Shown here in pieces: positions 2,012 through 10,724 of a stretch of 64,000 bases of DNA. The notes under the pieces were generated by a model. It ran no database searches and was not told where the DNA came from. It was given only the letters and a program-made list of their open reading frames with translations. The position numbers and the translations under genes were made by a program. Every line of letters begins with the position of its first letter. Within the stretch, counting starts at the first letter, position 1. The DNA is from Terriglobia bacterium (GTDB taxonomy: Bacteria > Acidobacteriota > Vicinamibacteria > Vicinamibacterales > CAVVIG01), in the NCBI GenBank assembly GCA_020073005.1, contig JAIQFX010000016.1, positions 1 to 64,000 of the forward strand, read 5' to 3'.

Positions 2012-2494
2012 TTATTGGCGATCCTTACGTTCACCGTTTCGTCGGGTATCCCATTTCATCAGGGTGTCGAACTGCCGGCGCTCGGTGGGCGTCATCGTCA
2101 GAGCCCGATGCTCGATGAACTCAGCGAAGTCCATCCGAGAGCGGAGCGCCGCCAGCTCATTTTGATAGGGTTGAGTCCACCAGGCGTAGCCAGCGCCCGC
2201 CGCTGCGGCCGACGCTAGGGCGAAGACGAGGGCCAACGCCCAGCGGCGCCACACACCCGGCCAGAACCGACGCATCTCCAGCTCCCGCCACCTGCGCGCT
2301 TCGTCCATCGTGCGCTGCGCCTGGTCGAGCCAGCTCTGCTCCCGCTGGAGAACCGCGTGCAGCTCATCGTTGCGCACCAGCGCATCTGCCTGTCCGCACA
2401 GTTGGTGGAGGAGTAGAGAGACTTCCGTCAGACGGGCATAGACGCCGTCAGCGGCCTCTCGTTGCGCGCGAAACGTGTCGAGGGCATTCGACAT
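2012..2494 (-). CDS. MobB-like mobilization protein with one membrane helix
   Basis: This 160-residue protein has a helical, coiled-coil-like N-terminal half (about 1-85), one membrane helix near residues 92-110 preceded by Trp and Arg residues (GVWRRWALAL), and a short charged C terminus. It starts two bases after the relaxase stop, and its GGGAGG ribosome-binding site lies inside the end of the relaxase gene. In IncQ plasmid R1162 a membrane-associated MobB, encoded with MobA, supports relaxase activity and transfer. A similar role is inferred from position and topology; I see no clear sequence similarity to MobB. Confidence 0.6.
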   Translation of the reverse strand: MSNALDTFRAQREAADGVYARLTEVSLLLHQLCGQADALVRNDELHAVLQREQSWLDQAQRTMDEARRWRELEMRRFWPGVWRRWALALVFALASAAAAGAGYAWWTQPYQNELAALRSRMDFAEFIEHRALTMTPTERRQFDTLMKWDTRRNGERKDRQ

Positions 2495-2496
2495 GG

Positions 2497-3441
2497 CTAC
2501 CTCCCTGGATATGAGTCCTCGTCCCGGCCAGGCCCGTCGCGATCCCGGTCGCGTCGAGGTTCTAGTTCTTCGTCGTCATGTCCCATAGCGCCCCTAGCGC
2601 CGCTTCGGCCGCTGTCCTCCAGCCGCTCGAGGTCGCGGTCGATGGCTTGGATCAGGTCCTGACGGTCGACTCGGGCCACCGCCTCTTCGAGCCGGTCGTG
2701 GTCAATTCCTCTGGCGACCATATGAGCCGCCGCGGGTCCATAGTGGCGGCCGGGATCGCGGTCGACTCCCTGCCGTTCGTAACTGCGATGGTCGACGCGT
2801 TCTTCGCGCCCGTGCGCCTTGAGCATTTGGTTCGTCAAGTCCGCCCAGCGCTCGCGCGCGTGCTCCATCCAATCGCGGCCGTGAAACGTGCGGCTCTTCG
2901 CCGCACCGCCCCGTTCCGGATGTGCAGAACTCGCCCGGCGAAACCACTGCGTGCGTTCGCGATCGATGCCGTCGTTCTGCCTCTCGGAGATCATCAGGTG
3001 CGCGTGCGGGTTGTGTTCAGAGCCGGTTGAATCCAGACCCTCGTGAATCGCCAGCGTGTAAGGCAGTTGTTCTTGGTCGGTGAGCTCGTGGGCAAACGAT
3101 CGCGCCAGCTCGATCTGATCGTCAGCGTTCAGATCTCGCGGCAGGGCGAAATCTGCGCTGACATAGAGGCGTCCGTTCGCGCGTTCATAGAGGTCGGCGC
3201 TATCCCAATAGAGGCGCGGCTCGTCTTCAGCCCAGGAAGGCATGTGATCCGACTCCACGTAGATCGCAGCGTCGCGCTCGGGATCGTCGTACTCATCGCT
3301 GCGCGTGATGTAGTCGTGCGCGGCGCTCGCGCACGATCCGCTCGCCCGCGAGCCCGACCGAAACGATAGGTGGTAGCAACCGCCACTGCTGCGCGCGTGG
3401 CCGCCGCCAGGCACGTCGTGATTTCGTTCGAAGCGCTCCAT
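2497..3441 (-). CDS. mobA: MobA/MobL-type relaxase (MOBQ)
   Basis: This DNA relaxase of 314 residues should nick oriT and attach covalently to the cut strand. Landmarks match IncQ MobA: an N-terminal YHLSFRSGSR; Tyr44 in AHDYITR, at the position of catalytic Tyr25 of R1162 MobA; ESDHMPSW and LYW downstream; and the metal-binding HNPHAHLM with H143, H146 and H148. It is little more than the relaxase domain, lacking the primase half of IncQ MobA. I chose the ATG at 3441 because the longer frame upstream only reads through the oriT palindrome. A MobB-like gene follows and a TraD-like gene diverges. Confidence 0.88.
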   Translation of the reverse strand: MERFERNHDVPGGGHARSSGGCYHLSFRSGSRASGSCASAAHDYITRSDEYDDPERDAAIYVESDHMPSWAEDEPRLYWDSADLYERANGRLYVSADFALPRDLNADDQIELARSFAHELTDQEQLPYTLAIHEGLDSTGSEHNPHAHLMISERQNDGIDRERTQWFRRASSAHPERGGAAKSRTFHGRDWMEHARERWADLTNQMLKAHGREERVDHRSYERQGVDRDPGRHYGPAAAHMVARGIDHDRLEEAVARVDRQDLIQAIDRDLERLEDSGRSGARGAMGHDDEELEPRRDRDRDGPGRDEDSYPGR

Positions 3442-3455
3442 CGTGGGAACCTCAG

Positions 3456-3512
3456 GTCGGCCAAAGGCGCACGCGCGTTTCGAAGAAACGCCAAAGTGCG
3501 CCTTTGGCCGAC
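3456..3512. other. oriT: Candidate IncQ-type origin of transfer (oriT)
   Basis: A perfect 17-base inverted repeat (3456-3472 and 3496-3512) encloses a second inverted repeat, GCGTTTC (3475-3481) and GAAACGC (3485-3491). The inner hairpin is followed four bases later by AAGTGCGCC. This is the arrangement of IncQ oriT sequences, where a short hairpin precedes AAGTGCG and the nick falls after the G. The predicted nick is between 3500 and 3501 on the strand shown. The site lies between the divergent relaxase and TraD-like genes, as expected. The outer repeat also places a GTGCGCC copy on the other strand. Confidence 0.75.
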
Positions 3513-3634
3513 TTCCGTCGTCCTGCAGGCTCCGTGCCCGCGCGCGGCGGCTTGTCCATTTCGCACGTGTTCGATGCGGCATGCTCGGTTCTGGCACTCC
3601 GGCTGCAACTGCGCCGGCATCTGGGAGGTGTCAC

Positions 3635-4024
3635 ATGCCGCAGTCCGAAAGAATTCAAGCTCGTCTTCAGTCGCTCGACGAACGGCTCGCCCGGTTACGT
3701 ATGAAGAAGGAGCGGCTCATCGCGCGGGTCAGTCACGCGGAACGCAAGCGGGATACCCGACGGAAGATTGTGATTGGCGGGGCCGTGCTCGCAGCCATCG
3801 AGCATGAGGGAGTGCCGATCTTGCGATCGAACACCGAGCTCCTCCGATGGCTCGACGCGCAGCTCACGCGCCCACACGATCGCGATGTGTTCGAGTTGGC
3901 GCCCGAGGGCATGCCAGCGGCCAGATCCGGTTCGGCCCCTAGCAGCCAATCGGCCCGCAGCGGAGCGGCGGTCAAGGATGCCGACCATCGGGAGGCACCG
4001 CGAAGCGGCGCGCAGCGTCCTTGA
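3635..4024 (+). CDS. TraD-like small mobilization protein
   Basis: This 129-residue protein has a charged coiled-coil N terminus (about 1-40, LDERLARLRMKKERLIARV) followed by RKRDTRRKIVIGGAVLAAI, which resembles the KRRTRRLIELGGL-type motif of the small TraD/MobC-like accessory proteins found beside MobA/MobL relaxases. The C terminus is low complexity. The ATG at 3635 is chosen because GGGAGGTG lies just upstream (3623-3630). It is divergent from the relaxase across oriT and probably acts in the relaxosome. Assignment rests on the motif and the context. Confidence 0.65.
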   Translation: MPQSERIQARLQSLDERLARLRMKKERLIARVSHAERKRDTRRKIVIGGAVLAAIEHEGVPILRSNTELLRWLDAQLTRPHDRDVFELAPEGMPAARSGSAPSSQSARSGAAVKDADHREAPRSGAQRP

Positions 4025-4558
4025 CGGCCGCGTGAGCGGAGGGCATCAATGTGTCGGGCCGAAGGTCCCGCGATGATCCGCACCCGTGCAAAATGCACGA
4101 CCCATTGCAAAATGCACGCATCGGTCACCGGATAACGGACGCGGCCGACCATGACGAACCGTAACGTTTTTGCGCGGTCGCGTCAGGAACGTGATTACGC
4201 GGATTCGCCAGAATCACCTGAAACCTCCTGAAGCGCCTGAATGGGACAACGCGTCCGAAACGCCTGCATCAACCGTGTCGGGTTCCGCGACAGAGGCGTG
4301 AAACCGAAGGCCACACGTCGCCATCGATGCATCACTGCAGACCACTCCAGCACCCGCCACACCGGTTGAACGCAGTCCACGCCAGTTCACCACACGGCAC
4401 GCCACACCACCACACGCCATCTCACGCCACCTCGTTGCATCGACGCCTATCACTGGCAATTGCGCCGTCAGTTCATCGTCGTCAATGCAGCACGCGTCTT
4501 GCTGATGTTCAGGCATCGGCGAACCGCGATTTGTTGAATGCGGTTCAAGGTAGTGAGT
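4025..4558. other. Gene-free stretch between mobilization and integration modules
   Basis: No convincing coding sequence is visible here. The stretch holds the paired GTGCAAAATGCAC-type palindromes (4086-4117) and a C/A-rich segment near 4330-4450 with repeated CACGCCAC-like words. The last hundred bases should contain the promoter of the excisionase-integrase operon, but I cannot point to clear hexamers. It could also hold regulatory or attachment-related sites. Confidence 0.4.
4086..4117. repeat. Two tandem palindromic boxes (GTGCAAAATGCAC)
   Basis: GTGCAAAATGCAC at 4086-4098 is a perfect 13-base palindrome. TTGCAAAATGCAC at 4105-4117 is a near-identical copy starting 19 bases later, about two helical turns. 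Such phased palindromes are typical of operators or replication iterons on plasmids and integrative elements. No Rep gene is visible, so an operator for mobilization or integration genes is the more cautious reading. Confidence 0.5.
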
Positions 4559-4780
4559 ATGAAGATCAGCCCAGCAGTTTCGGCAACTCGCGGTCCTCTC
4601 CTCTCCGTCGACGAAGCGGCGGAGTACCTCGGCGTTCGGCCGGGCACGCTACGCAACTGGCTCAGTACGCGGCGGCTCACGTATGTTAAAGTTGGGCGAC
4701 TCACTCGCCTGTCGTCCGACACGCTGAATCGATTCATCGCGGAAAACACCGTCGCCTCGATCCAAGAAGTCGAGCCATGA
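4559..4780 (+). CDS. Excisionase-like helix-turn-helix protein
   Basis: This 73-residue protein is a single MerR/excisionase-type helix-turn-helix domain: LLSVDEAAEYLGVRPGTLRN, a wing YVKVGRLTRLSSDTLNRFI. Such proteins act as recombination directionality factors or as repressors of the integrase operon. I prefer the ATG at 4559 because AAGG lies upstream at suitable spacing; an ATG at 4538 would add seven residues. Its stop overlaps the integrase start by four bases, so the two genes are coupled. Confidence 0.75.
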   Translation: MKISPAVSATRGPLLSVDEAAEYLGVRPGTLRNWLSTRRLTYVKVGRLTRLSSDTLNRFIAENTVASIQEVEP

Positions 4781-5940
4781 AGCTGTACAAACGCTGCGAT
4801 TGCGACGCAGACGCACGCTGCGATCACCACTACTGGTACCGCTTCACGCTGCACCGCCGGGAACATCGCGGCTCGACCCACACCGCGAATCGCGATCTCG
4901 CCAATCGGATCGCCATCAAGCGTCAGGGCCAGACGCTCGAGACGCACGAGAAGCTGCGCAAGCTCAAGACCGTCAAGCTCTCGGAACACGCAACCGCGTA
5001 CGCCGAATGGGCCGAGAAGACGAACCGCAGCTCGTTGCTGAAAGATCGTCGCGTCCTGAAAGGCTTCCAGGCGACGGTCGGCGATCGGCCGCTGGACGAG
5101 ATCACGGCGTTCCACGTCGAGCGCTGGAAGACGCTCCGCGCCAAAGAGGTCAGCCAGTCCAGCGTCAACCGCGAGCTCAACGTGATTCGCGGCTGCTTCT
5201 CACGCGCGGTCGAATGGGGTCGGCTCCTCATCTCGCCGATGAAGGCCGTCAAGCCCTACCGCGTCGACAACGTGCGCATGCGCGTGCTGTCGCCCGAAGA
5301 GATCCAGCATGTGCTCGAATCCTGTCGGCCGGCGCTGCAATTGATCGCCAGGACGACCCTGGAAAGCCTCCCGCGCCTCTCTGAGGTGCTCAATCTTCGG
5401 GTGGAGGACCTCGGGCCGGACTACGCAACGATCATCCAGACCAAGAGCGGCAAGAGTCGGCGGGTGCCGCTGACGTCAGAGCTGAAGGCCGAGCTCCTCA
5501 AGCAGGCGCACAAGAGCGGCTACATCTTCGGCCAGGGCAAGGACGGCAAGCCGCCGCAGCAGGCGGCGGTCAGTGTGGCGTTCGGACGTCTGATGCGCGA
5601 CATAGGCCTGGAAGGCGTCACGCATCACGTGTTGCGGCACACGGGCGCCTCGGCGATGGTGGCGGCGGGGATCTCCTTGCGCGTAGTGCAGGATATCGGC
5701 GGCTGGTCCACGTTGCGCATGCTCGAACGCTATGCGCATCCGAGCGGCGCGGAGATGTCGCGCGCGGTACGCGTGCTCACCGCGTACACGACCGGCACAA
5801 ATATCGGCACAGCGACGAAAAACGAGAACGGCGATCCGAAGACCGCCGACGCCGCAAGTGTTGTGAAGAGTGGAGTTACGAAGTGGCGTCCCCAACGGGA
5901 TTCGAACCCGTGTTTTAGCCTTGAAAGGGCCACGTCCTAG
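4777..5940 (+). CDS. int: Tyrosine recombinase (phage-type integrase)
   Basis: This 387-residue site-specific recombinase has an N-terminal arm region with CDCDADARCDHH, a SAM-like core-binding domain (about 70-165) and a catalytic domain (about 170-325). The catalytic set is visible: R200 in LPRLSEVL, H284 and R287 in HHVLRH, W310 in IGGW and Tyr319 in LERYAHP. The final 19 codons are read from the antisense strand of the tRNA-Glu gene, so the gene ends inside its own attachment site. It follows the excisionase gene with a four-base overlap and should drive integration at tRNA-Glu. Confidence 0.92.
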   Translation: MKLYKRCDCDADARCDHHYWYRFTLHRREHRGSTHTANRDLANRIAIKRQGQTLETHEKLRKLKTVKLSEHATAYAEWAEKTNRSSLLKDRRVLKGFQATVGDRPLDEITAFHVERWKTLRAKEVSQSSVNRELNVIRGCFSRAVEWGRLLISPMKAVKPYRVDNVRMRVLSPEEIQHVLESCRPALQLIARTTLESLPRLSEVLNLRVEDLGPDYATIIQTKSGKSRRVPLTSELKAELLKQAHKSGYIFGQGKDGKPPQQAAVSVAFGRLMRDIGLEGVTHHVLRHTGASAMVAAGISLRVVQDIGGWSTLRMLERYAHPSGAEMSRAVRVLTAYTTGTNIGTATKNENGDPKTADAASVVKSGVTKWRPQRDSNPCFSLERATS

Positions 5941-5959
5941 GCCTCTGGACGATGGGGAC
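5884..5959 (-). tRNA. tRNA-Glu (UUC anticodon), integration site
   Basis: A full cloverleaf can be folded: acceptor GTCCCCA with TGGGGAC, D arm from GTCC to GGAC, anticodon stem TGGCC/GGCTA with loop CTTTCAA (anticodon TTC at 5925-5923), T arm GGGTTCGAATCCC, and an encoded CCA at 5886-5884. The integrase gene runs into its 3' half, so the mobile element sits on the 3' side of the tRNA, the usual pattern for tyrosine recombinases. The matching second copy of the tRNA 3' end should lie left of the window; I see none inside it. Confidence 0.95.
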
Positions 5960-10230: not shown

Positions 10231-10724
10231 AGAGAGAAGCGGAACAGGGCGCGTCCGCCCGGCCGGCCCGGCCACGGCATGCCCGCGATCATCAGCAGCG
10301 TCGCGAGGCCGGCGCAGACGATCAGGCGCGTGCGTTTCGCCGGCGCCGTCTTCGCCTTGCGCGCGAGCACGCGGCCCACGTGCGCGAGAATGACGGCGCC
10401 CATCATCGCCGAGATGTGCTCGACGGCGTAGAAGCGCAGCGCCGGATCCTTCATCGAGGCGCCGAAGTGATTGAGGATCTCCTGCATGTTCGGGCTCAGG
10501 ACGAGGTAGAGCACGAGGCCGAGCAGCAGCTGCAGGTCCAGGGTCATCATCATCACCAGACCCCAGCGGTCGGCCACCGAGTTTTCGGGGACGGGTCTCC
10601 CCGCACCGCTGCTGGGAGACCCGTCCCCGACCGCGCCCCGCAGCGCGGCGAGGGTCGTGCCCACGCCCGCGACGAGCGCAACCCAGCGGATCCAGGAATG
10701 GAGGAGGAGGACGGCGCTGTACAT
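10227..10724 (-). CDS. Four-helix membrane protein carrying an in-frame palindrome
   Basis: This 165-residue integral membrane protein has four helices (about 5-28, 52-76, 95-117, 130-147). Conserved-looking residues are LLHSWIRW in the first helix and AVEHISAMMGAVILAHVGR in the third. I recognise it only as a conserved hypothetical. The loop between helices 1 and 2 (GDGSPSSGAGRPVPENS) is encoded by a perfect 15-base inverted repeat at 10586-10629, so that stretch looks inserted rather than ancestral. It lies just upstream of the nfeD-like gene, overlapping its start by four bases. Confidence 0.65.
   Translation of the reverse strand: MYSAVLLLHSWIRWVALVAGVGTTLAALRGAVGDGSPSSGAGRPVPENSVADRWGLVMMMTLDLQLLLGLVLYLVLSPNMQEILNHFGASMKDPALRFYAVEHISAMMGAVILAHVGRVLARKAKTAPAKRTRLIVCAGLATLLMIAGMPWPGRPGGRALFRFSL
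10586..10629. repeat. Intragenic palindrome, GGGGACGGG family
   Basis: CGGGGACGGGTCTCC at 10586-10600 and its exact reverse complement at 10615-10629 flank a 14-base loop. The core GGGGACGGG is shared with the palindromes at 13855 and 14021. Here it lies inside a membrane-protein gene and is translated in frame. Confidence 0.8.

Follow-up and report, generated by a model that had tools for sequence, protein, structure and literature searches.

The segment at positions 3456-3512 of the window (the whole 64,000-nt stretch analysed here, from contig JAIQFX010000016.1 of a Terriglobia bacterium) carries an IncQ-type origin of transfer (oriT) core inside a perfect inverted repeat. An initial annotation proposed that the repeat could let a relaxase nick either strand, and regarded the arrangement as unusual. 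We asked whether the site has the properties of an origin with one nick or two, and what the outer repeat may contribute.

Architecture of the oriT site

The site contains the inner hairpin GCGTTTC-GAA-GAAACGC followed by CAAAGTGCGCC, both enclosed by the outer repeat, as the initial annotation had described. The outer arms are 100% complementary over 17 nt, with 23 nt between them (Table 1). After the hairpin come CAAA and then GTGCGCC. The last seven bases of the left arm (3466-3472) are the inverted nick core, placing a second GTGCGCC on the - strand. The GTTTC/GAAAC hairpin arms are common to RSF1010, to family f14 of the same order and to small Enterobacter and Citrobacter plasmids.

Hairpin, spacer and core matched RSF1010-type oriTs, bearing out the proposed IncQ-type (MOBQ) layout: 6 nt ending in AA separate the GAAAC arm from a G[T/C]GCG core, and a relaxase gene adjoins. 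The ATG of that gene, at 3441, is 15 bp from the site, in keeping with the location first described. These sequence features make 3456-3512 almost certainly a MOBQ oriT within an integrated mobilizable element. The nick was placed at 3500^3501 (GTGCG^CC) by analogy with the RSF1010 nick position. The conserved right flank is a possible accessory-protein site.

Table 1. Features of the oriT region and its host element (window coordinates).
Feature	Position	Strand	Details
Small coiled-coil/membrane protein gene, pSC101 mobX position	2012-2494	-	81% identical homologue in sister species G034
MOBQ (MobA/MobL) relaxase, 314 aa	2497-3441	-	PF03389, E 3.3e-32
Left arm of outer inverted repeat	3456-3472		GTCGGCCAAAGGCGCAC; 17 nt
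Inner hairpin GCGTTTC-GAA-GAAACGC	3475-3491	+	7 bp; expected relaxase recognition hairpin
Alternative hairpin GCCAAAG-TGCGC-CTTTGGC	3490-3508	+	Nick would fall in loop
Right arm of outer inverted repeat	3496-3512		GTGCGCCTTTGGCCGAC; 17 nt; contains nick core
Nick core GTGCGCC	3496-3502	+	Aligned with RSF1010-type oriT CGGTAAGTGCGCC
Conserved right flank, CTTCCGTCGTCCTGCAGG region	3513-3535		Partly common to G532 (TTCCGTCGTCC)
TraD-like accessory gene, divergent from relaxase	3635-4024	+	PF06412 match below curated cut-off
GC-rich imperfect palindrome, conserved, closing the common mob module	3957-4046		GGTCAAGGATGC...GCGTCCTTGACGGCC
Excisionase-family DNA-binding protein	4538-4780	+	TIGR01764, E 4.4e-13; HTH_17
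Tyrosine integrase	4777-5940	+	PF00589, E 1.3e-22; 3' end overlaps tRNA-Glu
tRNA-Glu	5884-5959	-	Overlapped by integrase 3' end

Neighbouring genes and the host element

The closest solved structure to the relaxase was R1162/RSF1010 MobA (2NS6, E 6.5e-53). Its catalytic Tyr44 and His133, His146 and His148 aligned with MobA, the three histidines being invariant, as in a MobA/MobL relaxase; the MobA counterpart of Tyr44 is Tyr25. A Shine-Dalgarno-like GAGG precedes the gene at 3450-3453. In the window and in sister species G034 the relaxase frame continues without a stop across the oriT, which we judged incidental. We rejected a longer relaxase frame that takes in the outer repeat: C47, a second contig of the same genome, has stop codons upstream, and all three loci retain the GAGG that precedes ATG 3441.

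By position, the genes follow the order mobX-mobA <- oriT -> traD. The gene in the mobX position is named by place alone: its product showed no significant match to pSC101 MobX or to the product of the Col156 gene in the same position. TraD-like homologues were found beside oriT in C47, in G034, in G532 of the same class and in family f14. The element as a whole reads relaxase, oriT, divergent TraD-like gene, excisionase, integrase, tRNA-Glu, and the reading frames of the relaxase, TraD-like protein, excisionase and integrase are all intact. A second attachment site or element boundary was not found in the contig, whose start is window position 1. Because the 314-aa relaxase is without a primase domain and the locus is chromosomal, beside a tRNA-Glu and an integrase, the site is IncQ-like only in its mobilization part and does not belong to an IncQ plasmid. 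Judged by sequence, Acidobacteriota chromosomes here carry a mobilization module of IncQ/pSC101 type whose oriT is complete.

Two further observations concern the recombination genes. A perfect direct repeat, TGCAAAATGCACG, occurs twice with 19-bp spacing at 4087-4118, between the mob module and the excisionase gene, and possibly represents recombinase or excisionase arm sites. Elsewhere in the same genome a large serine recombinase (L210, G000:C149, 5433-7151) has the C-terminus WRPQRDSNPRFGLE; the 45-bp stretch that codes for it is 93% identical to the tRNA-Glu 3' half (window 5883-5927), the end point of the tyrosine integrase.

Other copies and conservation of the site

C47 carries another element. 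Window positions 2495-4065 aligned with it at 77%; only the mob part of this stretch was common to the two, and the C47 integrase differs from that of the window. The mob module of G034 is joined to an integrase like that of C47 and takes in the mobX-position gene (81%). The mob module thus appears as a unit joined to different integrases. The window contig (C60) and C47 (L005) are also identical over their first 138 bp and diverge after, which is probably an assembly break at sequence common to two related elements.

All 57 bp of the site were identical between the window and C47, whereas intergenic positions 3536-3634 were only 57% identical; the repeat is therefore more than a chance pairing. 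All aligned positions of the site were also identical in G034, which has 6 additional nt between left arm and hairpin, and there identity over 3536-3634 fell to 51%. The left arm is thus constrained in the same way as the rest of the site. The right flank was intermediate, 91% identical to C47 and 78% to G034. The palindrome that closes the module has copies at L005 1602-1688 and L179 about 10300-10420, and nowhere else in the genome. The window copy was 91% identical in C47, where the surroundings were 77% identical; the C47 copy folds with z -3.7. In sequence it looks attC- or REP-like.

A fourth copy of the site was found in G072, from another family of the order (L177 9217-9694, G072:C340). 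The search of the order gave no relaxase match adjoining this copy; by eye, the adjoining frame resembles a degraded relaxase start, and G072 is a possible case of element decay. G072 also has a broken relaxase fragment on another contig (L011 4129-4326). Of the 17 pairs in its outer repeat, 13 are still Watson-Crick and 3 are G-T; the changes include one compensatory double change. The compensatory change is suggestive only, since 166 of 500 shuffles equalled this pairing pattern; the clade offers three distinct sequences.

The apparently decaying G072 copy and the missing second boundary would fit a relic, an oriT-like palindrome left in an element that no longer functions. We regard this as improbable, because the four reading frames of the window element are intact and two diverged copies carry the repeat unaltered.

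Wider searches added little. A scan of the genome contigs gave one broken relaxase fragment. In viral contigs the hairpin pattern found two loci and the loose repeat pattern returned almost pure noise. Phylum covariance-model matches below about 29 bits, G532 excepted (e.g. L038, L050, L051), were rejected on reading as chance.

One head or two

The proposal that a relaxase transfers in both directions by nicking either strand, through the inverted GTGCGCC copies, draws on the perfect outer repeat with its core on both strands and on the left arm being fully kept in C47 and G034. An IncQ-type oriT covariance model scored the + strand at 44.6 bits and the - strand at 17.2, a value above background; the gap arises partly by construction, since the model was built on seven hairpin-plus-core sequences with the window among them.

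The geometry of the two heads differed. On the + side, 6 nt separate the hairpin arm from the core in nearly all relatives, ending in AA in all of non-Ti type; this spacing was fixed in some search patterns, and the plasmid intergenic, pSC101 and MOBQ4 regions, read free of it, agree. On the - side, spacing was 0, 1, 2, 4, 7 or 10 nt and the AA 5' of the core was absent. The distance from GCGCAC to GTTTC was 4 nt in the window and 10 in G034; in G072, which has a degenerate left core (GCGCGC), it was 7, and other lineages had 0-4 nt. The equal geometry of a double-headed oriT was thus not found, and the claim that either strand is nickable did not hold up: nicking of both strands is unlikely, and an origin working from two heads we consider very improbable indeed. 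On this analysis, the site is very probably an oriT with a single nick, on the + strand.

An inverted nick-core copy across MOBQ oriTs

The inverted second core proved not to be unusual, contrary to the initial annotation: pSC101, MOBQ4, Col156-type and other Acidobacteriota oriTs have an inverted GTGCGC. In 9 of 17 lineages, a sequence exactly complementary to core bases 1-5 lay within 15 nt left of the hairpin. Flank shuffles gave an expectation of 0.64, and a count of 9 was never attained in a million simulations; the lineages were grouped by us, are not fully independent and form a non-exhaustive sample. Wherever a relaxase gene adjoins, the inverted copy is on the relaxase side. GCGCAC stands 1-2 nt from the hairpin in Col156-type E. 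coli and Salmonella plasmids, one Proteus plasmid and one Klebsiella plasmid, and (G)CGCAC 4 nt from it in G532 and family f14.

No inverted copy was found beside the hairpin of RSF1010 or Ti/Sym plasmid oriTs. The copy is therefore not essential to all MOBQ oriTs, because RSF1010 and Ti-type origins work without an adjacent one. The idea that the outer repeat is a Ti-plasmid feature was tested and proved false, there being no inverted core copy left of the Ti hairpin. Compared at the sequence level, inverted copies recur among MOBQ oriTs, and the 17-bp form is the longest among the origins examined.

Across lineages, these counts give strong statistical weight to a flanking MOBQ oriT element, the inverted nick core towards the relaxase gene. 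Tentatively, the inverted copy may serve a large class of MOBQ oriTs as a functional half that has had little recognition, pairing with the nick site and gating cleavage or rejoining, with the 17-bp version as its clearest example. The literature covered, which did not extend to key pSC101 and R1162 papers, contained no description of the inverted copy, and it may already be known.

A separate observation concerns tiny plasmids of Enterobacter (1184 bp; L028 334-367) and Citrobacter (1488 bp; L029 181-210). Both carry GTTTCGAAGAAACTACTAAGTGCGC, a complete-looking MOBQ-type mini-oriT; they have no relaxase gene and are annotated as non-mobilizable.

Folding of the site and role of the outer repeat

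The single-stranded 57-nt site gave folding energies of -30.2 kcal/mol (+ strand) and -30.1 kcal/mol (- strand), with z about -8.5 and no shuffle equal. The outer repeat scored above all 1000 left-flank shuffles. In the computed fold, outer plus inner pairing reached -29.3 kcal/mol compared with -6.2 for the inner hairpin alone, and such pairing in single strands would bury the nick. The alternative 7-bp hairpin at 3490-3508, together with a shortened inner hairpin, reached -7.7 kcal/mol; one of its seven pairs is lost in G072. The sole match to an intrinsic terminator was this nick-loop hairpin. Its tail is weak and the match lies within chance (0.4 expected), so we rejected a terminator.

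The stability of the full pairing is consistent with a role in single-stranded DNA. Once transfer has taken place, the left arm could pair with the core and so hide the rejoined nick, or hold the 3' end as transfer terminates in the recipient. On the + strand of G072 one pair has changed in a compensatory way and three have become G-T, and L206, with a GCGCG core, has a matching CGCGC on the left. However, the G072 pattern is one that shuffles readily reproduce, in a clade of three distinct sequences and a copy that may be decaying, and L207 and L200 have a GCGCG core with no partner. We regard this role as possible but doubtful.

Published MOBQ systems suggest a role in double-stranded DNA. 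In RSF1010, MobA and MobC control promoters P1-P3, which overlap oriT (PMC2200642), and the IncQ-type relaxase TraA of pIP501 binds left half repeats and represses its own operon (PMC4981023). Given these precedents, a palindrome flanked by a relaxase gene and an accessory gene that diverge from it would suit a binding and autoregulation site, and the autoregulatory operator raised in the initial annotation gains support as a possibility. In MOBQ4 plasmids the functional oriT lies in a 178-bp region between divergent genes, and transfer drops drastically when this region is split (PMC6856555). Both flanks of the split therefore matter in those plasmids, the split having been tested rather than the left motif itself.

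The same autoregulation at oriT could favour a purely regulatory repeat, an operator or mRNA leader stem-loop for the relaxase gene with no part in DNA processing, and the repeat does lie between divergent genes and end 2 nt before the relaxase GAGG. No sigma-70-like promoter was recognised near the outer repeat. Two features make a purely regulatory repeat unlikely: the right arm holds the nick core itself, and the part of the left arm that is conserved across lineages is the complement of that core, which ties the left arm to nicking or relaxase recognition.

The best overall explanation, and in our judgement a likely one, is a MOBQ oriT with a single + strand nick whose outer palindrome is a relaxosome or autoregulation site. 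The relaxase would recognise the inner hairpin and nick the + strand once, at GTGCG^CC. The 17-bp palindrome would be an exaggerated form of the flanking motif found in many MOBQ oriTs. Its most likely role is in double-stranded DNA, as a symmetric site for relaxosome proteins (the relaxase and/or the TraD-like protein) that would also repress the divergent genes; in single strands it may also cover the nick core by folding, with an effect on re-cleavage or rejoining. Taken alone, the proposed part of the outer repeat in relaxosome binding or autoregulation is evenly balanced.

Comparison with known systems

RSF1010/R1162 (IncQ1) has the same GTTTC...GAAAC hairpin, a AAGTGCGCC core and the same spacing, and its MobA, the best structural relative (2NS6), is about 48% identical to the window relaxase. 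It differs in having no inverted core beside the hairpin (GCGCAC lies 25 nt away, on the relaxase side), in a relaxase fused to a primase, and in MobC, which is not TraD-like by annotation. In the Ti/Sym plasmids (TraA, MOBQ) a TGCGCC nick region likewise follows a hairpin, with traA and traC-traD-traG diverging on either side; their core is TTGCGCC, and the left-hand copy is missing.

The Col156-type MOBQ plasmids of E. coli and Salmonella read GCAGGAGCGCAC-hairpin-AAGTGCGC, with an inverted copy as here. Their outer repeat is shorter and imperfect compared with that of the window; in E. coli it is interrupted (GCAGGA-GCGCAC / GTGCGC-TTCCTGC). The MOBQ4 plasmids pIGWZ12 and ColE9-J read GGGCGCAC-hairpin-ATAAGTGCGC, and their oriT lies between divergent relaxase and accessory genes, as here (PMC6856555), whereas the hairpin stem is ACAATC/GATTGT, the outer pairing 6 bp and the relaxase larger.

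The gene order mobX-mobA <- oriT -> traD is that of pSC101 and of other MOBQ plasmids, and the pSC101 relaxase is 40% identical to that of the window over 222 residues. The pSC101 oriT has a hairpin with an inverted GGGCGCAC immediately to its left and a TCTAA-GTGCGCCC core, reading GGGCGCAC-hairpin-TCTAAGTGCGCCC. It differs in an outer repeat of 8 bp, compared with 17 here, and in being part of a plasmid, not an integrated element. The role of the inverted copy is directly testable in existing pSC101 and MOBQ4 mobilization assays.
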